Virus record (IMG/VR): IMGVR_UViG_3300042468_000790
Span: 1-64,000 of that record
DNA: 64,000 bases
Source: a virus
Direction: 5' to 3' (one strand)
This document shows, piece by piece, positions 35,678 to 62,983 of the stretch (position 1 is the stretch's first letter; every line of letters begins with the position of its first letter). Made by a program: the position numbers and the translations under genes. Under the pieces are notes generated by a model. It saw only the letters and a program-made list of their open reading frames with translations, was not told the DNA's origin and searched no databases.

Positions 35678-35751
35678 TCGGGCATAGAGGATTTGAACCT
35701 CTGACCTTTCCGGCCCAAGCGGAACGCGCTACCAAACTGCGCTAATGCCCG
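35678..35751 (-). tRNA. tRNA-Pro (UGG), copy 1
   Basis: Full cloverleaf, 74 nt. Anticodon stem TTCCG/CGGAA with loop CTTGGGC. C1-G72 and A73 fit proline identity. No CCA is enco­ded. Confidence 0.93.
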
Positions 35752-35764
35752 TATTTCTTTATGT

Positions 35765-35793
35765 ATAATACCATGACTACCCCATCATGTCAA
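35765..35793 (-). promoter_or_regulatory. Promoter for tRNA-Pro copy 1
   Basis: TTGACA (35788-35793), 17 bp, TATTAT (35765-35770), lying between tRNA-Ser and tRNA-Pro. Confidence 0.8.
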
Positions 35794-35795
35794 TA

Positions 35796-35878
35796 CGGAA
35801 AGAACAGGAATCGAACCTGCGAAGTTTTTACACCCAGCCGCTTTCAAGGCGGTGTCCTCGACCAACCGGACTCTTTCC
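35796..35878 (-). tRNA. tRNA-Ser (UGA)
   Basis: 83 nt, class II with a long variable arm and G73. Anticodon loop CTTGAAA reads UCA. Confidence 0.92.
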
Positions 35879-35889
35879 AAAATAAGTCC

Positions 35890-36150
35890 TTAACGGACTT
35901 CAAAATCAAGTCGTCTTACTTTACGCTGACGCCTTGCTTCTTGAAAGGCAAGGTCTTCATTCGTAAGAACAGTAGACTTTTCTTTGATACTCATATAGTT
36001 TACCATAACGACCTTTGATAAGTCAAGTGCCGCAATATTTTCATTATTACGAATGGTTGCCATATTAGGACATCCACAAGTAATTGTTTTACCAGACTTC
36101 CCTTCAATCTCGCTTCCGCAAGGCTTACATCTAACTTTTAAGTTTTCCAT
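35890..36150 (-). CDS. Small zinc-ribbon-like protein
   Basis: 86 residues. Two Cys pairs, CKPCG (8-12) and CGCPN (25-29), form a likely zinc ribbon. The rest is charged and ends QEARRQRKVRRLDFEVR. It may bind nucleic acid. It sits between dps and tRNA-Ser and is probably cotranscribed with dps. Confidence 0.7.
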   Translation of the reverse strand: MENLKVRCKPCGSEIEGKSGKTITCGCPNMATIRNNENIAALDLSKVVMVNYMSIKEKSTVLTNEDLAFQEARRQRKVRRLDFEVR

Positions 36151-36162
36151 CGCTATAATTAA

Positions 36163-36606
36163 TTATTCAGTAAATGATCTTAACATCCAAACTGCTTTTC
36201 CGTGAGATTCATTCAAATCGTCAACAAGATTAATAGTTCCTTTTGAGTTTTGTTTCTCTGCTTCATCGGACACCTCGGTAAGCATCTCAATAATTTTCTT
36301 ATGGTCTCCCATCAATTGCTCAACCATAGTCTTGGCATCAATAGACTGTGTGCTATTTGACGCCTGCTCCACTCCAGAGACCTCTGTAATGCGTGTGAGG
36401 GTGCTTACAGGTTTCATACCCAGGAATCGCATATGCTCGGTGATACGGTCGATTTCCTCAAACATTTCCTCATATTGCCCACCAAACAAATCGTGATACT
36501 CCTTAAAATTGGGTCCAACAACATTCCAGTGATATATCCAAGTTTTATGAAATAAGACGAAAAGTGATGCCTGTGTATCACTCAATAGTTTGAATAGTTT
36601 TTCCAT
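36163..36606 (-). CDS. dps: Dps-like ferritin
   Basis: 147 residues, a usual Dps length. HKTWIYHWNVVGPNFKEYHDLFGGQYEEMFEEIDRI-type helices (quoted in part) place the ferroxidase ligands His-x-n-His...Asp...Glu, as in starvation-induced DNA-binding ferritins. Dps oxidises Fe(II) with hydrogen peroxide and shields DNA. A T4-type late promoter precedes it, so it may act late or be packaged. It lacks an obvious basic N-terminal tail. Confidence 0.85.
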   Translation of the reverse strand: MEKLFKLLSDTQASLFVLFHKTWIYHWNVVGPNFKEYHDLFGGQYEEMFEEIDRITEHMRFLGMKPVSTLTRITEVSGVEQASNSTQSIDAKTMVEQLMGDHKKIIEMLTEVSDEAEKQNSKGTINLVDDLNESHGKAVWMLRSFTE

Positions 36607-36625
36607 TACTCAAAGTAGTTTTGAG

Positions 36626-36633
36626 TATTTATA
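36626..36633 (-). promoter_or_regulatory. Late promoter of dps
   Basis: TATAAATA, 19 bp upstream of ATG 36606 and abutting the 3' end of tRNA-Val. A short ACTCAAA/TTTGAGT hairpin fills the leader. Confidence 0.7.
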
Positions 36634-36634
36634 A

Positions 36635-36707
36635 TGAGCAATCGCAGATTCGAACTGCGGACTTTCTGAATGTAAATCAGACACTCTAACCGCTGAGTTA
36701 ATCGCCC
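36635..36707 (-). tRNA. tRNA-Val (UAC)
   Basis: 73 nt. Anticodon stem TCTGA/TCAGA, loop TTTACAT. Acceptor stem GGGCGAT/ATTGCTC has two G-U pairs. Confidence 0.92.
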
Positions 36708-36713
36708 CTAAAG

Positions 36714-36848
36714 TCAAGACTGATTCATCATATATTCTACCGTAGTTGCTATATCATTCATAGCATCACGGAGATTTTCTCTTTGACCAGATTCTTGTTT
36801 ACGAATTGGACGAGAACTATCACACAGAGTCCACCTCCACTGATTCAT
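36714..36848 (-). CDS. Small hypothetical protein, 44 residues
   Basis: Begins MNQWRWTLCDSSRPIRKQES and ends TTVEYMMNQS. It overlaps the C-terminus of the upstream gene by 29 bp in another frame and continues as an open, protein-like frame to the tRNA-Val edge. Function is unknown. Confidence 0.6.
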   Translation of the reverse strand: MNQWRWTLCDSSRPIRKQESGQRENLRDAMNDIATTVEYMMNQS

Positions 36849-37062
36849 TTCTGAGCAGAACCATAGATTTATCTTCATTCTTATAGTGTTCTAACTTAAT
36901 CCAATTTATAAGAGCATTTACTTCCATCATTTTTTGTTCATCTTGTTTAATGACGATATCAGAAGGAAGTTCTCCAAAGTTAATGATTAATGGAATTGCA
37001 GTTTTATAGTATTCTAATGCTTCTATAGCAAGTTTTCTATCACGTTGAGAAATAAGCGACAT
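36820..37062 (-). CDS. Hypothetical protein, 80 residues
   Basis: The start at ATG 37062 is set by a perfect ribosome-binding site (AGGAGG) 5 bp upstream. A longer TTG-started frame runs into the promoter. MSLISQRDRKLAIEALEYYK suggests a helical protein. Family is unknown. Confidence 0.7.
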   Translation of the reverse strand: MSLISQRDRKLAIEALEYYKTAIPLIINFGELPSDIVIKQDEQKMMEVNALINWIKLEHYKNEDKSMVLLRNESVEVDSV

Positions 37063-37083
37063 AGACCTCCTAACTCGTTTCTT

Positions 37084-37112
37084 ATTATACGACAAAAGGG
37101 AGGTTTCGTCAA
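37084..37112 (-). promoter_or_regulatory. Promoter fused to the pstS terminator
   Basis: TTGACG (37107-37112), 17 bp, TATAAT (37084-37089). The -35 lies in the loop and 5' arm of the pstS terminator hairpin. Confidence 0.7.
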
Positions 37113-37118
37113 CCCCCC
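37094..37118 (-). terminator. pstS terminator
   Basis: GGGGGGTT/AACCTCCC-type hairpin with one mismatch and TTTT, a few bases after the pstS stop. Confidence 0.6.
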
Positions 37119-37127
37119 ATATCTATA

Positions 37128-38090
37128 TCAGTTACCGATACGCTTTACGGCAATTCTTGATTTGTTGAGAATGCTACCGGCAAGAGGAACATAACCCAGA
37201 TCATCAGCAAGCATTTGTGCCTTAGAACTCAAAGCATAATTGAGTGCCTGTTGAATATCACCAGTCTTTGCACCATTTCCAGTCTTATAGGCAAGAATCC
37301 AAGTCAGAGTGGAGATAGGATATGCACCAGAGGCAGAAGGATTAGGATTTTCGCCAGCAAGATTTGCATCCAGTTTGATAGAGTTTAGAGCAATAGCACC
37401 AGACTTAGCAGTAGGAAGAACAAACTGCCCTGCCTTATTTTGAACTGCTGCTGTCTGAAGTTTATTTGCTTTCACAAATCCGGTATTCACATAACCAATA
37501 GAACCAGGAGTGGTCTTAACAGTACCAGAAACACCTTCATTTCCTTTACCACCAATACCAACAGGCCATTTTACTGACTTACCAACTCCAGGTTTCCAAC
37601 CACCAAAAGCATCCAGAGAATTAGTAAATGCAAAAGTAGTTCCAGAACCATCAGAACGATGAACCACAAGAATAGGTCCAGCAGCACATCCAAGTGCCTT
37701 CCAGTTCTTGATGGTTCCAGAAAACACATCTACAGTTTGCTTCTGAGTGAGTTTCAGAGTGCATCCAGGTTTGTTATAAGCAACGGCAATAGTTCCACCC
37801 ACCATAGGAATTTGAACCACGCCACGCTTAACTTTACTTGCCTCTTTTGACGAAATAGGTTCATCAGTTGCACCAAAATCGACAGTTCCTGCGACATACT
37901 GACGGACACCAGAACCAGAACCAACTGACTGATAATTCACACGATTGCCAGTTTCAGAAGCATAACCTTGGAACCAGCGTTGATAGATGGGTGCTGGAAA
38001 GGTGGCACCAGCACCATTCAAAGGAGGTCCAGCAAGAGCGGCAACAGGAGCAGCAACCAGACCAGCAACAATAAGATTTTTGAGTTTCAT
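37128..38090 (-). CDS. pstS: Periplasmic phosphate-binding protein
   Basis: 320 residues. Signal peptide 1-20 (cleavage after ALA). Phosphate-site segments: GAGATFPAP, SVGSGSGVRQ, DFGATDEP and HRSDGSGTTFAF. PstS delivers phosphate to the host PstCAB transporter. Cyanophage copies raise uptake in P-limited hosts. A Pho box precedes it, so host PhoB probably controls it. It ends in a terminator that carries the next promoter. Confidence 0.95.
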   Translation of the reverse strand: MKLKNLIVAGLVAAPVAALAGPPLNGAGATFPAPIYQRWFQGYASETGNRVNYQSVGSGSGVRQYVAGTVDFGATDEPISSKEASKVKRGVVQIPMVGGTIAVAYNKPGCTLKLTQKQTVDVFSGTIKNWKALGCAAGPILVVHRSDGSGTTFAFTNSLDAFGGWKPGVGKSVKWPVGIGGKGNEGVSGTVKTTPGSIGYVNTGFVKANKLQTAAVQNKAGQFVLPTAKSGAIALNSIKLDANLAGENPNPSASGAYPISTLTWILAYKTGNGAKTGDIQQALNYALSSKAQMLADDLGYVPLAGSILNKSRIAVKRIGN

Positions 38091-38113
38091 AAAAAGTGAA
38101 TAACTACAGAGTA

Positions 38114-38158
38114 ATTATAAGGTAAAGGAAAGATAAAATCAACTAAGATTTGGTTAAG
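38114..38158 (-). promoter_or_regulatory. Pho box and -10 box of pstS
   Basis: Three 8-bp units at 11-bp period, CTTAACCA (38151-38158), CTTAGTTG (38140-38147) and TTATCTTT (38129-38136), resemble the cyanobacterial CTTAACCT PhoB site. TATAAT follows at 38114-38119. No sigma70 -35 is present, as expected for an activated promoter. Confidence 0.75.
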
Positions 38159-38160
38159 AC

Positions 38161-38189
38161 AAAAAAAAGCACCCAAAGAATGGGTGCTT
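38161..38189 (-). terminator. Porin-gene terminator
   Basis: 9-bp stem AAGCACCCA/TGGGTGCTT with a 5-nt loop and T8 on the minus strand, directly upstream of the Pho box. Confidence 0.9.
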
Positions 38190-38212
38190 CTACTCATATT
38201 ATGAGTTGTTTA

Positions 38213-39697
38213 TCAGAATGTGAACTTAGTCTGGACTACACCACCCCACTTGCTGGAATCTTGATAACGCTGATTGTTATCAACATAGAACAGAGCAGGA
38301 GTAATGCTGATGTTATCGGTGACTTGGAACTTGTAGAAGATTTCAAGCAGAGTTGCATCATCTACACCAGCGGTTTCGGCAGAAGGTGCTTGACCCAAAG
38401 CAATACCAGCAGAGTTACCCTTAGCAAAGACATCGCTCCACTGAAGACCAACCATCCAAGAATTGGAATCAGTAGCATCACCCGAACCAGGAGTACCACT
38501 TACACCATTATATCCATAAGCAGCAGAAACGGAAGGAACCCAACCAGATTGTTGTGGTTGCCAATAAGCATTAAGAGCAACACTATTGGATTCTTGACCA
38601 GCAGCAAGAGTACCATTAGCACTCAAGAGACCGTTGTAGGTGCGCGAACGAGTGCCTTCAGTACCATAACGGTAACCTACGGCAACACCCCACTGAGGAG
38701 CACGATAACCAACTTGAGCAAGCAGGTTCAGAGCACCATCAGCATTGAATACACCAGTTTCGGAATCATCACCGTTCTGAGCAACATAGTTCAGACCAGC
38801 AACAAATCCACCTTGACCTTTCTTGGTAGGTTGTTTCCACTGAGCACCAAAACCAGCACCAGTTGCCTTGTTATAGACACCGGGAACACCAGAAACAGCA
38901 AAGAAGTCAAGAATTTCTGACTTATAAGCAGAAGGAATCCATGCCATCTCGGTATTACGAACCAGAGGACCAGCAGTTAGAGTTAGACTCTTACTTACAG
39001 GGAACTGGTAGTAAAGACGATCGATCTCTACAGTTCTATCGGTAGATTCTGCCTTATCAAGTTTGAACAAAGAAGAACTAGAACCAAAAGGATCGCTACT
39101 GAAGTTACCGGAACGAAGACGAGTACGGAGCAAGTCCTTACCAGTAAACGAGGTATCAAAGTTCAGACGCAGATCATAGTTGAATGCGGTGTTACCCACA
39201 TCAGCACCTTTATTGGTTTCAAGACTAGGAACTCCACCAAGCATGAAATTGACTTCACCCTTGAGTTTAGTAGTGGTAGAGAATTGTGTTGCTTCCAAGT
39301 TTCCAACACGGTTCTCCAGACCATCTACACGACCCTTGAGTACTGCAAGTTCACTCTTGAATTCGTTCAGCAGTCGTTGAAGTTCATCTGTAGTTTCAGT
39401 CACACGATCCAAACAGGCATTCAGCAGTGCTGCTGCTTCAAAGCGAGTCATTGCCTGACCACCTTTGTATGTGCCGTTAGGATAACCAGCAACGCAACCA
39501 TAACGGTCTACGAGGTTGGTAAGTGCCTGATATGCCCAATCAGTAGGTTGGACATCAGAGAATTGAGTAACACTTGTAACCTGTGCTGCCGAAGCATACT
39601 TATTGACATCCTCAGTATTGAGTTCTGCAGCGATAGCAGCAGGAGCAACAAGACCCAGAGCAACAGGGACGAGCATTAGTTTTTTAAGAAAATTCAT
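38213..39697 (-). CDS. Cyanobacterial-type SLH-porin (OprB/SomA family)
   Basis: 494 residues. Signal peptide 1-23 (AIAA end), then an SLH domain (about 45-100: FSDVQPTDWAYQALTNLVDR, GYPNGTYKGGQAMTRFEAA). A short coiled coil (about 100-138) and a beta-barrel with the typical C-terminal aromatic (VQTKFTF) follow. This is the architecture of the major cyanobacterial outer-membrane porins, where the SLH domain binds peptidoglycan-linked polymer. Placed just before pstS, it may open the outer membrane to phosphate or other nutrients. It was probably acquired from a host. Confidence 0.9.
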   Translation of the reverse strand: MNFLKKLMLVPVALGLVAPAAIAAELNTEDVNKYASAAQVTSVTQFSDVQPTDWAYQALTNLVDRYGCVAGYPNGTYKGGQAMTRFEAAALLNACLDRVTETTDELQRLLNEFKSELAVLKGRVDGLENRVGNLEATQFSTTTKLKGEVNFMLGGVPSLETNKGADVGNTAFNYDLRLNFDTSFTGKDLLRTRLRSGNFSSDPFGSSSSLFKLDKAESTDRTVEIDRLYYQFPVSKSLTLTAGPLVRNTEMAWIPSAYKSEILDFFAVSGVPGVYNKATGAGFGAQWKQPTKKGQGGFVAGLNYVAQNGDDSETGVFNADGALNLLAQVGYRAPQWGVAVGYRYGTEGTRSRTYNGLLSANGTLAAGQESNSVALNAYWQPQQSGWVPSVSAAYGYNGVSGTPGSGDATDSNSWMVGLQWSDVFAKGNSAGIALGQAPSAETAGVDDATLLEIFYKFQVTDNISITPALFYVDNNQRYQDSSKWGGVVQTKFTF

Positions 39698-39756
39698 ATA
39701 GTTCGTTAAGAATTACAACTACGAAGTTTATTTAGACCCCCTGATATTTTAGGGGA

Positions 39757-39827
39757 AGCGGATACACGGATTTGAACCGAGGATAAAAGTTTGGAAAACT
39801 CTTGTGTTACCACTACACCATATCCGC
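39757..39827 (-). tRNA. tRNA-Gly (UCC)
   Basis: 71 nt cloverleaf. Anticodon loop TTTCCAA reads GGA. Acceptor GCGGATA/TATCCGC with U73. Confidence 0.93.
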
Positions 39828-39832
39828 AATGT

Positions 39833-39903
39833 TGAGAGTGGAAGGTTTCGCATCCTTCTACTGTATCCCTTGTCGGGGTGCCTTACTTTTGGCATCACTC
39901 TCA
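39833..39903 (-). ncRNA. Cloverleaf-like structured element, not a normal tRNA
   Basis: An 8-bp closing stem (TGAGAGTG/CACTCTCA) encloses three hairpins in tRNA order: TGCC/GGCA with 8-nt loop, a short CCC/GGG arm, and GAAGG/CCTTC with 8-nt loop. There is no anticodon arm of normal size and no TTCRA T-loop. It follows a consensus promoter. It could be a decayed tRNA or a tRNA-mimicking RNA. Confidence 0.45.
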
Positions 39904-39926
39904 GCGTACTTCCTTCACACCATGGA

Positions 39927-39955
39927 ATTATAAGACATAATGAGTATTATGTCAA
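39927..39955 (-). promoter_or_regulatory. Consensus promoter for tRNA-Gly and the porin
   Basis: TTGACA (39950-39955), 17 bp, TATAAT (39927-39932). It starts at the last base of tRNA-Thr. Confidence 0.85.
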
Positions 39956-40025
39956 GCCCCATAACAGAATTGAACTGTTCTCTGCAGTTTACAAAACTGC
40001 TGCATCACCACAATGCTTATAGGGC
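39955..40025 (-). tRNA. tRNA-Thr (UGU)
   Basis: 71 nt. Anticodon stem GCAGT/ACTGC, loop TTTGTAA. Acceptor GCCCTAT/ATGGGGC. Its 5' half lies inside the HNH reading frame. Confidence 0.92.
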
Positions 40026-40333
40026 GGATTGTGTAATTCTCTATGGCAGTTAGCACAAACAAGAATACACTTTTTTGCTTCTTCTCTTTGTTTTTCAAGA
40101 GAAAGAGTAGACCCAATTATACCACCTTCCTTTACGGTTGGGTCAAGATGGTGGAAATCTAATGCGGCAATGCACTTATTATACCCACATATAGAGCAAC
40201 AGTTTCCTGCTTCCTCTTTTAGAATAGCAACATTTTTCCTTCTGGTAGCGGATACACGCTCTGCGCTTTTCTTTGCCCAATCAGGATTTTTTGCTTTTCT
40301 TTCAGCATAAGTTCGTGTTTCTATTTTTGCCAT
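39989..40333 (-). CDS. HNH endonuclease reading into tRNA-Thr
   Basis: 114 residues. CSICGYNKC (about 46-54), DFHHLDPTVKEGG (catalytic His pair) and LVCANCHRELH form an HNH domain with zinc-binding cysteines. The last 12 codons and stop are encoded by the 5' half of tRNA-Thr (37-bp overlap). It lies between tRNA genes and is probably a selfish nuclease targeting a tRNA locus. Confidence 0.85.
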   Translation of the reverse strand: MAKIETRTYAERKAKNPDWAKKSAERVSATRRKNVAILKEEAGNCCSICGYNKCIAALDFHHLDPTVKEGGIIGSTLSLEKQREEAKKCILVCANCHRELHNPPYKHCGDAAVL

Positions 40334-40369
40334 TATTATTGGTATAACTTTTATTATTTATACCGATAA

Positions 40370-40442
40370 CTCCCCCACCTGGACTCGAACCAGGAACACT
40401 TTGATTAACAGTCAAATACTCTGCCAATTGAGCTATAGGGGA
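40370..40442 (-). tRNA. tRNA-Asn (GUU)
   Basis: 73 nt. Anticodon stem TTTGA/TCAAA, loop CTGTTAA. T arm CCTGG/CCAGG. G73. Confidence 0.93.
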
Positions 40443-40448
40443 ATATTG

Positions 40449-40539
40449 GTAGGAGGGGGAGAACAAAGTGACTACCTCATCCCTCTTGCACATCATCTAG
40501 ACTTTTGGACAGACCAGAGAGAGGTGTTGCACTTCCTAC
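40449..40539 (-). ncRNA. Structured spacer between tRNA-Asn and tRNA-Arg
   Basis: Closed by GTAGGA/TCCTAC with an inner CACCTC/GAGGT pairing, about 91 nt. It lies just downstream of a promoter. It does not match a tRNA. Role is unknown. Confidence 0.3.
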
Positions 40540-40567
40540 ATTTTGATAGAGGCGCCTATCAGTTTAT

Positions 40568-40596
40568 ATAGTAACAAACTTTTGAAGGTTTGTCAA
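40568..40596 (-). promoter_or_regulatory. Promoter within the tRNA cluster
   Basis: TTGACA (40591-40596), 17 bp, TACTAT (40568-40573), directly after tRNA-Arg. Confidence 0.7.
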
Positions 40597-40597
40597 G

Positions 40598-40671
40598 CGT
40601 CCTTTGAGAGATTCGAACTCCCGACACATAGGTTCGTAGCCTACTGCTCTAATCCACTGAGCTAAAAGAAC
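40598..40671 (-). tRNA. tRNA-Arg (ACG)
   Basis: 74 nt. Anticodon loop CTACGAA reads CGU, and CGC/CGA if A34 is converted to inosine. Acceptor GTTCTTT/AAAGGAC. Confidence 0.92.
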
Positions 40672-40675
40672 AAGG

Positions 40676-40747
40676 CGAAGGGTGAGGGATTTGAACCCCC
40701 ATCGCAAGGTTTTGGAGACCTGCATCTTACCGTTAGACTAACCCAAC
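40676..40747 (-). tRNA. tRNA-Trp (CCA), weakened acceptor stem
   Basis: 72 nt. Anticodon loop CTCCAAA reads UGG, with G73 as expected for Trp. Acceptor GTTGGGT/ACCCTTC leaves two U-U mismatches at 2-71 and 3-70, and 27-43 is also unpaired. Confidence 0.8.
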
Positions 40748-40769
40748 AAAATTTGGATATAAAATCCAA

Positions 40770-40843
40770 TGCCCGATACAGGACTCGAACCTGTAAAACC
40801 TTGTTTCTAAGACAAGTATGTATTCCAATTCCATCAATCGGGC
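40770..40843 (-). tRNA. tRNA-Leu (UAG) with short variable loop
   Basis: 74 nt. Anticodon loop CTTAGAA, Leu-like D arm, acceptor GCCCGAT/ATCGGGC, A73. The variable region is only about 5 nt, whereas bacterial tRNA-Leu is normally class II. Confidence 0.88.
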
Positions 40844-40846
40844 TGG

Positions 40847-40917
40847 CTGAGAAACTAGGACTCGAACCTAGATAAACGCCTTCAAAGGGCGGTGTCCTAC
40901 CATTAGACGATTTCTCA
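40847..40917 (-). tRNA. tRNA-Gln (UUG)
   Basis: 71 nt. Anticodon loop CTTTGAA, stem CCGCC/GGCG-type. Acceptor TGAGAAA/TTTCTCA, G73. Confidence 0.92.
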
Positions 40918-40921
40918 TTGG

Positions 40922-40993
40922 GGTGTCGTGAGGGAATCGAACCCTCGTAGGGAGAATCACAATCTCCAGTCTTAACCACTAGACTAACGACAC
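40922..40993 (-). tRNA. tRNA-His (GUG)
   Basis: 72 nt. Anticodon stem GGAGA/TCTCC, loop TTGTGAT. C73 and a preceding base that can provide position -1. Confidence 0.92.
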
Positions 40994-40995
40994 AG

Positions 40996-41068
40996 TGGCT
41001 GTAGATGGATTCGAACCACCGACGACTTCCGTATGAAAGAAGCGTTCTACCAACTGAACTATACAACC
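40996..41068 (-). tRNA. tRNA with CAU anticodon (Met, or Ile if modified)
   Basis: 73 nt. Anticodon stem CTTCT/GGAAG, loop TTCATAC. Sequence alone does not separate elongator Met from lysidine-modified Ile. Confidence 0.88.
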
Positions 41069-41071
41069 TGG

Positions 41072-41154
41072 TGGAAGATGTTGGATTCGAACCAACGGAG
41101 GTTTTATCCTCACGGTTTAGCAAACCGATGCATTAACCGCTCTGCCAATCTTCC
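41072..41154 (-). tRNA. tRNA-Ser (GCU)
   Basis: 83 nt, class II with long variable arm. Anticodon loop TTGCTAA reads AGC/AGU. Acceptor GGAAGAT/ATCTTCC. Confidence 0.92.
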
Positions 41155-41158
41155 AAGT

Positions 41159-41248
41159 GGGGAGAAGGTGGAATCGAACCACCATTGCCAAAGGACGGAA
41201 TCGAACCGTCTCTAACACCGTCGTGCTCACCATCCAAGGTGCTCTCCC
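41159..41248 (-). tRNA. Irregular tRNA-like gene with two T-arm motifs
   Basis: 90 nt. The acceptor GGGAGAG/TTCTCCC pairs. A normal T arm GGTGG-TTCGATT-CCACC precedes the 3' strand, but a second complete T-arm motif GACGG-TTCGATT-CCGTC lies where a class II variable arm would be. A possible anticodon loop GTTAGAG (UAG, Leu) has a mismatched stem. D arm CACC/GGTG. Identity is uncertain. It may be a class II tRNA or a recombinant of two tRNAs. Confidence 0.5.
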
Positions 41249-41251
41249 AAG

Positions 41252-41358
41252 TTGATAAGGGCGCCTGATTTAAAGTGCGCTTGGGTCGTTTAACTAGGGG
41301 ACTATTTCACCCTCCTCCCCCGTCACACTAATGTTTGGTGGGGGTGGACCCTTATCAA
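41252..41358 (-). ncRNA. Structured spacer with 10-bp closing stem
   Basis: TTGATAAGGG/CCCTTATCAA exactly closes the 107-nt gap between tRNA-Ile and the irregular tRNA. Inside, CACCC/GGGTG, CCCCC/GGGGG and GCGC pairings are possible. Function is unknown. Confidence 0.4.
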
Positions 41359-41430
41359 TAGGAATACCCAGATTTGAACTGGAATCTATCGGTTATCAAC
41401 CGATTGCTCTAACCATTGAGCTATATTCCT
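41359..41430 (-). tRNA. tRNA-Ile (GAU)
   Basis: 72 nt. Anticodon stem ATCGG/CCGAT, loop TTGATAA. Acceptor AGGAATA/TATTCCT, A73. Confidence 0.92.
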
Positions 41431-41434
41431 GAGG

Positions 41435-41508
41435 CGGGAACAATTGGATTTGAACCAATAACACCTTGTTCTTCAAACAAGTGCTCTACCAATTGGAGCT
41501 ATGTTCCC
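41435..41508 (-). tRNA. tRNA-Phe (GAA)
   Basis: 74 nt. Anticodon stem CTTGT/ACAAG, loop TTGAAGA. Acceptor GGGAACA/TGTTCCC. Confidence 0.92.
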
Positions 41509-41512
41509 AAGG

Positions 41513-41586
41513 TCTGAGAGGCAGGATTTGAACCTGCGACTTGAGCGTTCCAAACACCCAGCTCTACCAAACTGAGCTACTCCCAG
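41513..41586 (-). tRNA. tRNA-Pro (UGG), copy 2
   Basis: 74 nt. Anticodon loop TTTGGAA, C1-G72 and A73. The body differs throughout from copy 1, so it is not a recent duplicate. Confidence 0.88.
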
Positions 41587-41589
41587 ATA

Positions 41590-41661
41590 CATTCCTAACG
41601 GGATTCGAACCCGTGTTACCTCCTTGAAAGGGAGGTGACCTAACCGCTAGTCGATAGGAAC
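41590..41661 (-). tRNA. tRNA-Glu (UUC)
   Basis: 72 nt. Anticodon stem CCTCC/GGAGG, loop CTTTCAA. Position 1-72 is G-U. Confidence 0.92.
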
Positions 41662-41668
41662 TTGATTT

Positions 41669-41729
41669 GAAGGCAGGTGCGGTATCATCCCGAAGGCGTT
41701 CCCATGCTCCTTTTACTTTCCTTGCCTCC
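41669..41729 (-). ncRNA. Structured spacer with 7-bp closing stem
   Basis: GGAGGCA/TGCCTTC (one G-U) closes about 61 nt between tRNA-Glu and tRNA-Asp, with an inner CGG/CCG arm. It is too short for a full cloverleaf. Possibly a decayed tRNA. Confidence 0.3.
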
Positions 41730-41731
41730 AA

Positions 41732-41803
41732 CGACCCTAACGAGATTCGAACTCGTGATTCTTCTTAGACAGAGAAGTATGATAACCACTTCATCATAGG
41801 GTC
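41732..41803 (-). tRNA. tRNA-Asp (GUC)
   Basis: 72 nt. Anticodon stem CTTCT/AGAAG, loop CTGTCTA. Acceptor GACCCTA/TAGGGTC, G73. Confidence 0.92.
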
Positions 41804-41807
41804 AAGG

Positions 41808-41896
41808 TGGGAGAAGAGGGAATTGCACCCCCAACGGTTCTTATGTAACAGTTTTACAGACTGCCGCCACACATATCTAATAGTAGCCTTTCTCCC
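41808..41896 (-). tRNA. tRNA-Tyr (GUA)
   Basis: 89 nt, class II. Anticodon loop CTGTAAA. Acceptor GGGAGAA/TTCTCCC. The T loop TGCAATT departs from TTCRANY at its second base. Confidence 0.85.
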
Positions 41897-41899
41897 AAA

Positions 41900-41972
41900 T
41901 GGGTCGTAGAGGAGTTGAACCTCTCTCTACCGGTTAAAAGCCGGGTGCATAAAACCGATCTGCCAACGACCC
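41900..41972 (-). tRNA. tRNA-Lys (UUU)
   Basis: 73 nt. Anticodon stem CCCGG/CCGG-type, loop CTTTTAA. Acceptor GGGTCGT/ACGACCC. The stretch 41973-42103 to its right holds no gene I can support. Confidence 0.92.
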
Positions 41973-42103
41973 AAATAATATGGATAAATATTCGGTTGTC
42001 TAGGTTCTGGTGGAGAGGCAATCCCTCAACCACTTGATTAGAATACCACCGTTTGGTCTCTGGGGGGAGATTGGTGGGCACTTAGGAAACTGGTACAGGC
42101 AAC

Positions 42104-42137
42104 AAAAAAGGGGAGGAAACTTTTGGTTTCTCTCCCC
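42104..42137 (-). terminator. Terminator inside the tRNA region
   Basis: GGGGAGAGAAAC / GTTTCCTCCCC hairpin with a one-base bulge, loop CAAAA, and T6 on the minus strand. Confidence 0.8.
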
Positions 42138-42166
42138 CTTCTTATTTGCTTTTTATGGATTACATC

Positions 42167-42268
42167 TTACATATGTCTTTCCATATCCGCAAACAGGGGA
42201 GAACCCTCAATATGCCAATAGCGGCAATCGAGATTACTAATCTGTTTTGTGGGCATCGGATAAGACAT
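42167..42268 (-). CDS. Possible 33-residue peptide
   Basis: ATG 42268 lies about 25 bp after a promoter -10 and the frame stops before a terminator. The peptide (MSYPMPTKQISNLDCRYWHI at its start) has no recognised domain. This would be the only gene in the 348-base gap between tRNA-Lys and tRNA-Ala. Confidence 0.35.
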   Translation of the reverse strand: MSYPMPTKQISNLDCRYWHIEGSPLFADMERHM

Positions 42269-42291
42269 TGTTTTCGACCTAAGTGTTTTTA

Positions 42292-42320
42292 TTTATAAGA
42301 CTTTTTTGTTAAAAAGTCAA
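42292..42320 (-). promoter_or_regulatory. Promoter downstream of tRNA-Ala
   Basis: TTGACT (42315-42320), 17 bp, TATAAA (42292-42297). The -10 is also part of a TATAAATA late-promoter match. Confidence 0.7.
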
Positions 42321-42321
42321 G

Positions 42322-42395
42322 TGGAGAATATCGGACTCGAACCGATGACATCTTGCTTGCAAAGCAAGTGCTACTACCAACTGAGCTAATTCCCC
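42322..42395 (-). tRNA. tRNA-Ala (UGC)
   Basis: 74 nt. Anticodon stem CTTGC/GCAAG, loop TTTGCAA. Acceptor GGGGAAT/ATTCTCC with one G-U. Confidence 0.92.
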
Positions 42396-42398
42396 AAG

Positions 42399-42472
42399 CG
42401 TCCCGAGCTGGATTCGAACCAGCGACCCACATCTTAGAAGGATGTTGCACTAATCCGCTGTGCTATCGGGAC
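42399..42472 (-). tRNA. tRNA-Arg (UCU)
   Basis: 74 nt. Anticodon stem ACATC/GATGT, loop CTTCTAA. Acceptor GTCCCGA/TCGGGAC, G73. It is the first tRNA of the array in transcription order. Confidence 0.93.
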
Positions 42473-60087: not shown

Positions 60088-60497
60088 CAAATGTCTCCAT
60101 CTTCACGATTTTCACTATAGTATGCGTCAAAAAATCCGTCTGGATAACGCTTCATCAGTTTATCAATATTAGTCTGAATTACTTCATCAAAAGAGACATC
60201 AAGAGCAATACACGCTTGTGCCACATACCACATCGTATCACCCAGTTCCTTAATCAAGTGAGTACGGGTCTCATCATTCCAAGACTTACCTTGAAAGACC
60301 ATTTTCTTGACTATTTCTAAAAACTCACCACCCTCGGCATTAATTCCCACAGAGGCAGTCAGAAGACGCTCAATATTAGCACCTTTCTCATCCAACTGAA
60401 CCATACGGTCAGAAAGAGCAAGGAAATCTTTGGATGCATCAGAAGTTACGGCATCTACGAAGTTCTGATACTTATTAAAATCAACTCGTTGTGTCAT
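60087..60497 (-). CDS. mazG: MazG-like nucleotide pyrophosphohydrolase
   Basis: 136 residues. Helices AEGGEFLEIVKK and HLIKELGDTMWYVAQAC give the ExxE...ExxD metal site, followed by NIDKLMKRYPDGF typical of all-alpha MazG NTPases. It hydrolyses (d)NTPs. Cyanophage MazG was proposed to lower ppGpp but favours dGTP/dCTP. It is coupled to the gp41 C-fragment by 4 bp. Confidence 0.9.
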   Translation of the reverse strand: MTQRVDFNKYQNFVDAVTSDASKDFLALSDRMVQLDEKGANIERLLTASVGINAEGGEFLEIVKKMVFQGKSWNDETRTHLIKELGDTMWYVAQACIALDVSFDEVIQTNIDKLMKRYPDGFFDAYYSENREDGDI

Positions 60498-61666
60498 GAA
60501 AATTTAAATCCCTCAAATGATTTTTTTGGTTTATTTTCTTCATTATTATACTCCTCTTCTTTACCGCTGTCAAGTATGTCGTTTTGTGCGGACTGTTCTA
60601 CATCATAAAGTCTCATTTTGGCACGGTCAATTCCAACAACGAAACGCTTAAAGATTGTTGGGTCATTATATCTGTTTTTAAGTTGCTTCACCATAATCTG
60701 CCCTAGACCTTCTAATTCCTCGGTACTAATCAGAGCAAACATAAGGTCGGCAGTAGCAGGAAGACCGAACGATTCAGAAGTATCGGTCAATTCTACATCG
60801 GAAGAACCAAAACCGCTCCTAGTCGTCTGTGTCGCACTCATAATAGGAACATTAAACTCTACTGCCAAACCACGAAGTTCTTCGGCAATAGACTTAACCA
60901 AAGTATAAGAATTGATATTACTACCACTCTTAAATCGTGAGGAGGAGCAAATATTCAAATAGTCAATAAAGATAATATCAGGTCTAAATGATTTCTTCAG
61001 AGCAAGTTCATTCAGAAGTGCCTTGAAGTGCCCGGAGTGTGCCGAAGCAGTAGGATATTCTTTGATTACCAAAGAACCCCGAGTCTTCTTGGAAATACCA
61101 TTTACTTTATTCTCAAATGCTGAGCGTGGTAAATCAATCAGTTGTTGAATTGGAACATTAAGAAGATTCGCATCAATTCTTTCGGCAATTCTTTCTTCTG
61201 CCATTTCAAGAGTAATATAAAGAACATTTCTATTCTGTAGTAAGGCAGAACTGGCAACGTGACACATAAAGAGAGATTTTCCAACTCCAGTATTGTGAGA
61301 GGAAACTCCATTAGTGTAATATCTATGATTTGGATGATTTACATTAATATCTACAATAGGTATTTGTTTATTGTTTTTATAAACCCGACCAATTTTAATA
61401 CCCTCGTTAGTAATCAATTTGTATATTAAGTTAGATTGTTCCATTTCTTTAGCGGAAATCCAACCTTCAGTAGTTTCAAACAAATGGGACTCATTACAAC
61501 TAACTTTATTACCCCCCATCATAAGCAATTCATATTCTTCATACATCCCCTTATTAATAAAAAAATTAACAGGAACATATCCATCGGGAGAATCAACCTC
61601 CACTTCATATCCATTATCAAGTAATGTTTTGATTTCAGCAATCGATGTTTCTTTTTCAATCCACAT
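60494..61666 (-). CDS. Replicative helicase gp41, C-terminal part, with split-intein C-fragment
   Basis: 390 residues. Residues 1-125 are the C-fragment of a split intein: block-B-like CNESHLFETTEGW (56-69) and the C-terminal splice motif NHRYYTNGVSSHN. The C-extein (265 residues) starts at Thr126 inside the Walker A motif (TGVGKS) and continues with the DnaB/gp41 RecA core: IIFIDYLNI (Walker B), SATQTTRSG and a late Arg-rich KNRYNDP. With the 194-residue N-extein it gives about 459 residues, close to T4 gp41 (475). It is inactive as a helicase unless spliced. Confidence 0.9.
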   Translation of the reverse strand: MWIEKETSIAEIKTLLDNGYEVEVDSPDGYVPVNFFINKGMYEEYELLMMGGNKVSCNESHLFETTEGWISAKEMEQSNLIYKLITNEGIKIGRVYKNNKQIPIVDINVNHPNHRYYTNGVSSHNTGVGKSLFMCHVASSALLQNRNVLYITLEMAEERIAERIDANLLNVPIQQLIDLPRSAFENKVNGISKKTRGSLVIKEYPTASAHSGHFKALLNELALKKSFRPDIIFIDYLNICSSSRFKSGSNINSYTLVKSIAEELRGLAVEFNVPIMSATQTTRSGFGSSDVELTDTSESFGLPATADLMFALISTEELEGLGQIMVKQLKNRYNDPTIFKRFVVGIDRAKMRLYDVEQSAQNDILDSGKEEEYNNEENKPKKSFEGFKFS

Positions 61667-61670
61667 TTTG

Positions 61671-61678
61671 TATAAATA
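61671..61678 (+). promoter_or_regulatory. Late promoter for the antisense HNH gene
   Basis: TATAAATA on the plus strand, 20 bp upstream of ATG 61699. The extended sequence GTATAAATAC is nearly palindromic, so it may also act for the gp41 C-fragment on the minus strand. Confidence 0.7.
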
Positions 61679-61698
61679 CCATTAGCAGGGACAGGGAA

Positions 61699-62367
61699 AT
61701 GTTTAATCAAATCTATTCTAACTTATGTGAAGGCAATAAGTCAAGAAAAGAAAACTATAAAAAATATTCTGGGTTACACGAACATCATATTATTCCCAAA
61801 CATATGGGGGGAAGTGATGAAGATTTTAATCTAACATATTTAAATGTTAGAGAACATATATTGGCACATTATTTGTTGTGGAAGATATATAAAAATCCAA
61901 ATGATTTAAGGTCTATGAAAATGTTGGGAGCAAACTTATCTCCACAATATAGAAAAATAACAGGAGAATTTTGTCGTGACAATAATATTGGTATTTTTTC
62001 CATTCCATCAAATGAAAGAAAAAAATGGACAATAAAAGGAATAGAAAGTCAAAAACAAGATTACTTAACAAATCAAACAAAAAATTTTTACTATTGGAGC
62101 ACCGAAGAGGGAAGAAAAGAAAGGGCATCTCTTGGAGGAAAGAAGATGGGGTCAAAAGAATTTAGTTATTGGGCATCTAATGAAGGAAGAAAAACACGAT
62201 CATCATTAGGGGGAAAGGCGCATAAAGGAAAAAAGGTAATGCATTTGCCCGGAACAAAGGGATGGAAAAGAATATCACCAGAAGAAGTTGATATAAAACT
62301 AAATGAAGGTTGGAAGTTTGGAACTGGAGAACCAGCACCAAACTCCAAAATCAAGAAATCTTCCTAA
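61699..62367 (+). CDS. HNH homing endonuclease inside the broken helicase gene
   Basis: 222 residues from MFNQIYSNLCEGN (ATG 61699; a longer frame overlaps the promoter). HEHHIIPKHMGGSDEDFN and NVREHILAHYLL form the HNH core (His, Asn, His). The rest carries NUMOD3-like repeats (EEGRKERASLGGKKM, EGRKTRSSLGGKA) and a basic, Gly-rich end. It lies exactly between the two helicase halves on the opposite strand and overlaps the N-half by 17 bp. A free-standing homing enzyme that maintains the fractured locus is inferred. Confidence 0.88.
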   Translation: MFNQIYSNLCEGNKSRKENYKKYSGLHEHHIIPKHMGGSDEDFNLTYLNVREHILAHYLLWKIYKNPNDLRSMKMLGANLSPQYRKITGEFCRDNNIGIFSIPSNERKKWTIKGIESQKQDYLTNQTKNFYYWSTEEGRKERASLGGKKMGSKEFSYWASNEGRKTRSSLGGKAHKGKKVMHLPGTKGWKRISPEEVDIKLNEGWKFGTGEPAPNSKIKKSS

Positions 62368-62983
62368 ATCTAATTTTAACTATAGTTTCTGGATGAACGC
62401 AACCGGCAAGAGCAATATTCAGAGTCTTATTAGGTAATCCACCTTTTGTGATTTTGTTGAAATATTCTAGGTCAAATTCAATCTTATCTTCTTTACGATG
62501 ATAAAACTCATATCGTTCCTCATAATTCTGAAGATAATCGTGACCTATATTATTATCAAAAGATACTGCCAAGGCATCGGAAAGAATACTGGGAATGGCA
62601 TCTCTACCTTTTTTATCATCCTTACCATCGGCAATATGAATGGACTCCATGAGTGCCAAGTAAATAGCACGGTCACGGCACCACTTTTCGGTAGTATCCA
62701 GTATCCACTGCTTATCCACAGGACTATCATTAAGTTTAGAAAGTAATTCTACTATTTCCTTATTTTCAGATTCTGTCAAATCTCTACGATTATCAATCTC
62801 AATATTGAGTGCTTCTATTGTAATTGAAGAACCATACTTAACGATGAACTCAACAATTTCCTCAAAAACTATCTTTTCTACTCTTTGCTCATAGTACTCC
62901 GGTTGAATAAAAGGAATAACCTTTCTGGCATAGTCTTCATTAAATACTAAGTTTCTAAGGATTGTAAGTTCAAGTCGTTCCAT
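62351..62983 (-). CDS. Replicative helicase gp41, N-terminal part, with 16-residue split-intein N-fragment
   Basis: 210 residues. The first 194 are the N-terminal domain and the start of the RecA core of T4 gp41, ending LNIALAG just before the P-loop. The last 16 (CVHPETIVKIRFRKIS) begin with the obligatory Cys1 and end at a stop, the expected form of an atypical, ultra-short intein N-fragment. Joining LAG to TGVGKS restores the Walker A motif. A normal intein N-part is about 100 residues. Confidence 0.9.
   Translation of the reverse strand: MERLELTILRNLVFNEDYARKVIPFIQPEYYEQRVEKIVFEEIVEFIVKYGSSITIEALNIEIDNRRDLTESENKEIVELLSKLNDSPVDKQWILDTTEKWCRDRAIYLALMESIHIADGKDDKKGRDAIPSILSDALAVSFDNNIGHDYLQNYEERYEFYHRKEDKIEFDLEYFNKITKGGLPNKTLNIALAGCVHPETIVKIRFRKIS

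Follow-up and report, generated by a model that had tools for sequence, protein, structure and literature searches.

Results

The gp41 gene of the window lies in two halves

We analysed a 64,000-nucleotide stretch of viral DNA (positions 1 to 64,000 of IMG/VR record IMGVR_UViG_3300042468_000790; hereafter the window), in which the gene for gp41, the DnaB-like replicative helicase, is divided by the two pieces of a putative split intein and an endonuclease gene. The virus is of the T4-like cyanophage kind. Both gp41 halves lie on the minus strand. The open reading frame (ORF) of the N-half (62351–62983, 210 aa) encodes the 194 N-terminal residues of gp41 (N-extein, 62402–62983), which end in NIALAG, followed by a 16-residue N-intein, CVHPETIVKIRFRKIS (62354–62401), and a TGA stop codon (62351–62353). 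The ORF of the C-half (60494–61666, 390 aa) opens with a 125-residue C-intein beginning MWIEK and ending GVSSHN (61292–61666), and continues from T+1 into the 265 C-terminal residues of gp41 and a stop codon (C-extein, 60494–61291). The break falls inside the Walker A loop, LAG/TGVGKS. Between the halves, on the plus strand and antisense to gp41, lies an HNH endonuclease gene of 222 codons plus stop (61699–62367), the stop codon of which is placed inside the N-intein, creating a 17-nt antisense overlap (62351–62367). The HNH gene is preceded on its own strand by a T4-type late promoter element, TATAAATA (61671–61678), and by TTAGCAGGGACAGGG (61682–61696), a candidate operator that reads L-A-G-T-G out of frame with the HNH gene.

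Both gp41 halves match one helicase family and jointly cover its profile without loss. In a profile search with PHROG family phrog_19, the N-half matched positions 161–361 (E = 5.6e-42) and stopped there, and the C-half began at 362 and extended to 598; the C-extein also matched DnaB_C (E = 3.7e-16). Together the exteins amount to 459 aa (194 + 265), the length of uninterrupted gp41 in a relative, L006. A preliminary description of this DNA had read the N-half as LAG plus a 16-residue Cys-started peptide and a stop, the C-half as a 125-residue segment ending SSHN before TGVGKS, the gap as a 222-codon antisense HNH gene behind its own TATAAATA, and the joined helicase as about 459 residues long. 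The ORFs, the promoter element and the extein sum bear out all of these.

The intein pieces resemble VidaL

Split inteins are recognized by a nucleophilic Cys1, a block B His, a C-terminal His-Asn and a Cys, Ser or Thr at +1. The window intein has C1, N58xxH61, H124-N125 and T+1. In the C-intein, N58xxH61, D106, H111 and S123-H124-N125 are invariant both in 7 C-inteins and in 30. Conservation of Cys1 is not an independent count in the classified loci since the N-half search pattern required a Cys. The Pfam Intein_splicing model scored the C-half at 13.8 bits, under its cut-off of 35.8, and hence sequence and fold searches of the PDB were needed. In a phmmer search the joined 16 + 125 residues aligned with VidaL (PDB 6VGV) over 137 colinear residues across the split point (58.6 bits, E = 9e-15), at about 30% identity, and VidaL was the top PDB match of a profile built from 30 relatives (E = 1.1e-16). 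The host gene of VidaL, from Lake Vida, is presumably also a T4-like helicase.

The fold was examined on L143, a natural contiguous relative of the intein. The AlphaFold2 (AF2) model of the whole window C-half alone was too weak for a fold search (predicted local distance difference test score, pLDDT, 59). The AF2 model of L143 had a pLDDT of 95.4, and inteins fill the top of its list of PDB folds. The nearest solved structure is again 6VGV (template modelling (TM) score 0.87, root-mean-square deviation 1.5 Å). In the model, the split point falls between the strand at residues 7–13 and the next strand. This fits the position described for VidaL (6VGV/6VGW), whose atypical split directly after β strand 2 leaves an N-fragment of 16 aa (PMC13014065). 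The gp41-1 split intein (6QAZ, 6RIZ) shares the gp41 name and the intein fold (TM 0.66 and 0.75) but its sequence is only distantly related (profile E = 6.9e-8 and 1.6e-5). Ankyrin and designed ankyrin repeat (DARPin) matches to part of the C-intein (within 61292–61666) were dismissed as chance likeness because VidaL, an intein, aligns over the same stretch.

We took as VidaL-type an intein with an N-intein of about 15–37 aa, a split after β strand 2 and VidaL as nearest homologue. With a 16-aa N-intein and VidaL nearest in both kinds of search, the 16 and 125 residues are, by sequence and modelled fold, a VidaL-type atypically split intein, and the two gp41 halves are probably rejoined by protein trans-splicing. 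The preliminary description had proposed an ultra-short split intein and the alignment of its two parts to known atypical split inteins. The colinear VidaL match, the VidaL fold and the invariant catalytic positions back that proposal, as do the uninterrupted close relative and the single gp41 gene described below. Two uncultured-phage 'DnaB helicases' in UniProt, A0A6J5NUF0 (392 aa) and A0A6J5L144 (396 aa), are 52% and 56% identical to the intein model and appear to be C-halves of this type that have gone unrecognised.

No second gp41 was found

Relative L006 carries an uninterrupted LAGTGVGKS, and its exteins are 95–98% identical to those of the window in DNA and 99% (N) and 100% (C) identical in protein. 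Uninterrupted genes made up 73 of the 80 gp41 loci in our first IMG/VR scan. A second, intact gp41 gene had been named beforehand as one observation that would speak against replication depending on the fractured gene. A single gp41 match, with no second, was found in the 69-kb record that includes the window, and likewise in a 233,886-base record with an identical locus (which may not be a complete genome).

An antisense HNH gene in the gap is the rule among relatives

We collected related loci from IMG/VR in one scan with the C-intein (402 stretches, 328 relatives, of which the best 80 were kept) and two with the HNH (first 77 relatives in 73 loci, then 247 relatives, of which the best 80 were kept); arrangements more distant than these best-80 sets may differ. 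The C-intein scan and the first HNH scan, together with the gp41 scan above, gave 153 loci with a C-intein, or 72 distinct sequences including the window. Fifty-two of the 72 have an antisense HNH in the gap, one (L152) has a sense HNH, seven have a gap without HNH, four have a contiguous intein and in eight the N-half is not covered. Among the 64 with the N-half covered, the end of the antisense HNH overlaps or abuts the N-intein in 33, as in the window, and extra sequence or cargo ORFs lie between the two in 19, in two of which (L130 and L135) the HNH is decayed. The seven split loci without HNH have gaps of −11 to 169 nt. The opposite orientation of the HNH, singled out as notable in the preliminary description, thus holds for 52 of the 53 HNHs found in gaps with sequence for both halves. 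The gap cargo ORFs of L104, L109, L130, L135, L178, L182, L186, L199 and L212, between N-intein and HNH, share a module, YDIILSHLLDEGYAETPEAAEAIMVNMSEEWR, or close variants of it.

The HNH family sits at one site among the loci covered, since every HNH locus adjoins a gp41 half. All 73 loci of the first HNH scan lie beside a gp41 half on the opposite strand, as do all 79 newly numbered loci of the wider scan, 74 of which show both halves; some of these 79 are contigs already met in the earlier scan.

We compared identities and the ratio of non-synonymous to synonymous substitution rates (dN/dS) in 43 of the 50 HNH-bearing distinct loci (at least 400 nt of N-extein and at least 450 nt of C-extein), giving 903 pairs. 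Median dN/dS was 0.154 for the HNH (interquartile range 0.115–0.431; 654 usable pairs), 0.27 for the C-intein (643), 0.116 for the C-extein (228) and 0.169 for the N-extein (163). All parts of the locus are under purifying selection. Moreover, N-extein, HNH, C-intein and C-extein are each 100% identical in three IMG/VR contigs (L084, L085 and L086), and because of both observations the locus is not an assembly accident. An artefact or dead pseudogene might have been suspected since the close relatives are all metagenomic: 251 of 50,697 isolate phage records match the C-intein, all at less than 60% identity (about 28–33% for the best among the matches listed), and no close relative of the window intein was found among the 50,697. 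Set against three identical contigs, 72 distinct loci and purifying selection, that explanation is already refuted by the present results, and we give it next to no credence. Two of 2,652 isolate records include 80% or more of the C-half. Three isolate or named records were examined for the surroundings of their intein-like matches, and none has gp41 exteins beside the match. For gp41 itself the best isolate among the matches listed is Synechococcus phage S-SRM01 (85.3%).

The same data bear on whether the halves need splicing at all. They could instead associate into a working helicase, the intein residues being a relic, as in genes that the insertion of a homing endonuclease has split, such as mobE in Aeh1 nrdA; splicing is here something we infer, and endonuclease-split genes do exist in T4-like phages (PMC2988022). 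We consider this very improbable. The break lies inside the Walker A loop, even diverged relatives keep every catalytic position of the intein unchanged, purifying selection acts on the C-intein, and contiguous versions of the same intein would need splicing to yield a helicase.

Homing of the split intein is most likely driven by the HNH

The mobility of the element was assessed in the same 903 pairs. In 168, the C-intein is at least 90% identical but the C-extein less than 82% identical in DNA. The synonymous rate (dS) of the C-extein exceeds 0.8 or is saturated in 883 pairs; in 100 of these dS of the C-intein is below 0.3, in 48 that of the HNH is, and in 31 both are. The reverse pattern (C-intein dS above 0.8, C-extein dS below 0.3) occurs in none of 379 pairs. 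C-intein and HNH have thus moved between gp41 genes whose backbones differ much more than the mobile parts do, and a homing role is the most likely one for the HNH. As expected of a homing endonuclease, the one site is occupied in some relatives and empty in others, and the spread is horizontal. The preliminary description had assigned the HNH the same role as mobility partner, and the single site, the crossing of diverged backbones and the purifying selection support it. The window C-intein is itself a mosaic relative to L003–L005, with identities in 45-nt steps of 80–95% over the first ~135 nt, 35–75% in the middle and 91–100% over the last ~75.

H27, H29, H30, N44, H53 and H57 are invariant in 14 aligned HNH proteins, and the active-site set H29-H30, N44 and H53 is present. 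Its Pfam HNH score (16.2 bits) is below the cut-off of 21.4; the phrog_655 homing endonuclease family matches at E = 6.8e-15. The N-terminal HNH core is shared with T4-type free-standing HNHs such as mobD of RB7 (as annotated), which is 42.9% identical over HNH residues 2–70, the match spanning about one-third of the protein. A second HNH-like gene, 34% identical to the gap HNH, lies directly upstream of an intact uvsX in the same virus (L002:283–1071). Elsewhere in the window, 20 tRNA genes occupy 35678–42472 on the minus strand.

Several observations count against a dedicated homing partner. HNH and C-intein are not strictly linked, as L230 and the window have C-inteins 0.99 identical but HNHs only 0.58 identical. 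The HNH-less and contiguous forms imply that persistence of the intein does not require the HNH. Partial HNH relatives, many annotated as homing endonucleases, occur in 558 of the 50,697 isolate records, and hence the core is not unique to the gp41 site. Finally, extein identity in the first 30 bp of the flanks is in only slight excess over empty pairs (0.84 versus 0.78), and with so weak an excess co-conversion tracts were dropped as proof of homing.

Contiguous, split and HNH-less states probably interconvert

In a tree of 71 C-inteins (midpoint-rooted, built on few columns, bootstrap not settled, and with contiguous L154 placed loosely), contiguous L141, L143 and L147 fall in a clade with HNH-bearing L168, L173, L179 and L200 (support 99/97). 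Two forms without HNH pair with HNH-bearing ones, L009 with L216 and L139 with L199. The junction of L143 reads TTTCTTG followed directly by GTGGATTG at the place of the HNH segment in L179, and the gap of L139 retains letters of the HNH 3′ end. HNH loss by deletion is thus direct for L139 and likely for L143. The nesting of L143 among HNH-bearing relatives favours fusion by deletion, as far as a tree of few columns and unsettled bootstrap allows; in one lineage the intein was probably fused again in frame after HNH deletion.

These states could also be read with the HNH as a mere passenger, homing into the gap by targeting the intein gene at the N-intein/C-intein border while the split intein spreads without it. 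Other cargo ORFs also occupy the gap, one HNH (L152) has the sense orientation, a C-intein can stay in place as its HNH is replaced by another type (L161 versus L230, C-intein 0.99 and HNH 0.58 identical), contiguous L143 and HNH-bearing L126/L133 share a 98% identical C-intein, and the HNH segment is what distinguishes L179 from L143 at the junction. Yet 31 pairs have closely similar C-inteins and HNHs on diverged gp41 backbones, what separates the window from its close uninterrupted relative is the entire unit, and the leader copies described below resemble the extein site rather than the intein border. On balance we find a passenger unlikely and retain the HNH as the most likely homing partner.

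The HNH leader has a late promoter and a likeness to the insertion site

We read the HNH leaders of 113 of the 153 HNH loci, which gave 60 distinct leaders; of the other 40, 10 were unreadable and 30 gave 17 further leaders. The clade and ranking tests are based on the 113 only. TATAAATA is exact in 51 of the 60 and 16 of the 17 further leaders. Its expectation in the window is 6.2 per 64 kb on both strands, or about 0.002 per 40-nt leader. Judged by this enrichment, the HNH gene has a T4-type phage late promoter. Half of the 60 leaders (30) and 5 of the further 17 then have GCNGGNACNGG, which, with the preceding codon, reads L-A-G-T-G, the uninterrupted insertion site. Grouped into 29 clades at 72% identity, it is exact in 6 and near-exact, by eye, in 4 more.

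This likeness may instead be chance, the stretch being a ribosome-binding region (AGGGA/AGGAG) and nothing else, an explanation to which we give slightly less than even odds. Two AGGGA copies in the window have their ends 7 and 1 nt upstream of the ATG. The LAGTG-like stretch of L226 and L236, however, begins farther off, at 38 and 31 nt from the ATG, and L236 has a separate AGGAGA nearer to it. Among eight clade representatives, variation concentrates at wobble positions: all five vary, whereas three of the nine other positions do, each in one sequence. Most HNH leaders of the uvsX gap described below also carry 17–18-nt likenesses of the uvsX site.

Other comparisons weaken the case for a site copy. 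The likeness of the window leader to the gp41 site rests on codon positions 1 and 2 (9 of 14 nt). When leaders were ranked against gp41 without balancing, the junction came first of 1,361 segments on the HNH strand, but a segment on the opposite strand scored higher. With clades balanced, it came third at 11 nt and lower than sixth at 14 nt, although none of 200 shuffles reached it. When each leader was matched raw to the gp41 gene of its locus, the junction lay within the best match for only 7 of the 37 short leaders and for none of the 11 long ones, most best matches lying elsewhere. Lastly, 18 of the 29 HNH clades have a leader hairpin instead of site likeness (16, plus L274 and L275 by model), and a simple pattern finds hairpin-like leaders in 8 of the 17 further ones. 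We call the insertion-site copies suggestive here, and a role of the window copy as operator for autorepression of the kind known for I-TevI, argued by analogy, is in our view evenly balanced.

The hairpin of the sister clades follows the late promoter and covaries, with 97.5% of 159 cells paired and double changes in 9 of 10 pairs. It was found in L218, L219, L220, L223, L241, L246, L249, L258, L259, L261, L264, L266, L273, L276, L277 and L285. Rfam gave no match at its place in the six sister-clade loci searched, and the hairpin model has no match in the window. Three further copies, each with TATAAATA, lie at L220:1703–1744, L316 (G016:C1:3999–4043) and L317 (G030:C1:3500–3542), and each precedes another endonuclease-like gene (two HNH and one GIY-YIG, by eye). 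By these sequence matches the hairpin is a leader element shared by homing endonuclease genes.

A fractured uvsX gene provides a sister case

The uvsX gene, which adjoins gp41, is also fractured in relatives (L090:1–2132; L125, L138, L147, L148 and L323–L335). Here the split intein has a longer N-part and the borders EMGGG/CLV and VSHN/SGLKYA, with a sense HNH in the gap; these HNHs are distant relatives of ours (44–45% identity over ~50 residues). We compared 12 leaders from 11 contigs (L138 and L333 share one), mostly close kin. In 11 of the 12, the best match of the leader's reverse strand to the whole uvsX gene lies at −3/−4 to +14/+15 of the insertion point, with up to 18 of 18 nt matching. 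Eight of these 11 junction matches exceed the highest of 60 shuffles; those of L125, L138 and L333 do not, which tempers the result. The site-like arm of a dyad is kept where the other arm has decayed (L328, L329, L331 and L332) or is missing (L330), and pairing thus does not explain its conservation. Insertion-site copies in HNH leaders are, on sequence, strong in this sister system.

Discussion

We put at roughly 0.84 the probability that the only gp41 gene found for this virus is fractured by a three-part mobile element, with trans-splicing, HNH homing, leader autorepression and later HNH loss. The composite element would comprise the 16-aa N-intein, the 125-aa C-intein and the antisense HNH gene between them. 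The gp41 halves would be translated separately, and the intein pieces would associate, excise themselves and ligate LAG to TGVGKS, yielding, as sequence and fold suggest, a helicase of 459 aa whose Walker A loop is normal. The HNH, made late from the TATAAATA promoter, most likely acts by nicking or cutting gp41 genes with an uninterrupted LAG/TG site, and repair from the carrier would copy N-intein, HNH and C-intein together. Carriers would be immune because the insertion splits the site. Less surely, the site likeness in the leader may let the HNH repress its own late promoter, as I-TevI does. Once the element has invaded, the HNH may decay or be lost by deletion. What then remains is a split intein that lacks an endonuclease, and one lineage has probably gone on to re-fuse the intein in frame.

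Fractured genes are an already known kind. Dassa et al. (2009) reportedly described phage-like fractured genes with split inteins and free-standing endonucleases, stressing a Vsr-like family and mentioning control elements brought in with the endonuclease. The window locus shares with these a conserved phage DNA-synthesis enzyme gene, a split intein and a free-standing endonuclease between its pieces, but its endonuclease is a site-dedicated HNH, nearly always antisense. The late promoter of the HNH, HNH loss, probable intein re-fusion, the insertion-site copies in leaders and the HNH-less, decayed and contiguous states of the one intein are added here.

PMC2988022 offers several comparisons. 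I-TevI of T4 binds an operator resembling its homing site at a late promoter and represses itself, and similar sites accompany late or middle promoters of I-TevII and I-TevIII, the role being proven for I-TevI. These enzymes are intron-encoded, whereas our HNH is free-standing, antisense in a split-intein gap and has a putative operator. Free-standing endonuclease genes of T4 are commonly promoter-less according to the same text, in contrast to the window HNH. It also describes collaborative or trans homing, in which a free-standing endonuclease mobilises an endonuclease-less splicing element at its insertion site; here the element would be a split intein rather than an intron, with the endonuclease already inside the gap. 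Neither an antisense HNH in a gp41 split-intein gap nor homing-site copies in leaders appeared among the matches listed in open-licence literature, including passages of PMC13014065, PMC2988022, PMC10343443, PMC7090010 and PMC10448857, which is no proof of absence.

The family offers many VidaL-related N-inteins of 14–23 residues for protein labelling. It also provides a comparative series, with an empty-site relative and dozens of HNH-bearing, decayed, HNH-less and contiguous versions of nearly the same intein, such that how genes become split, and whether they heal, is directly testable. One and the same intein may pass back and forth between three forms (contiguous, split with an endonuclease, split lacking one) as the HNH segment is gained and deleted, which would make being split a reversible condition. 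More broadly, the chances are about even, in our estimate, that fractured-gene elements of T4-like phages combine such reversible cycling with a self-limiting circuit, in which several HNH lineages, each dedicated to one intein insertion site, keep a copy of the uninterrupted site in their own late leader and so repress themselves, and others carry a conserved leader hairpin. The leader site copies predict an I-TevI-like regulatory circuit in a second kind of mobile element.

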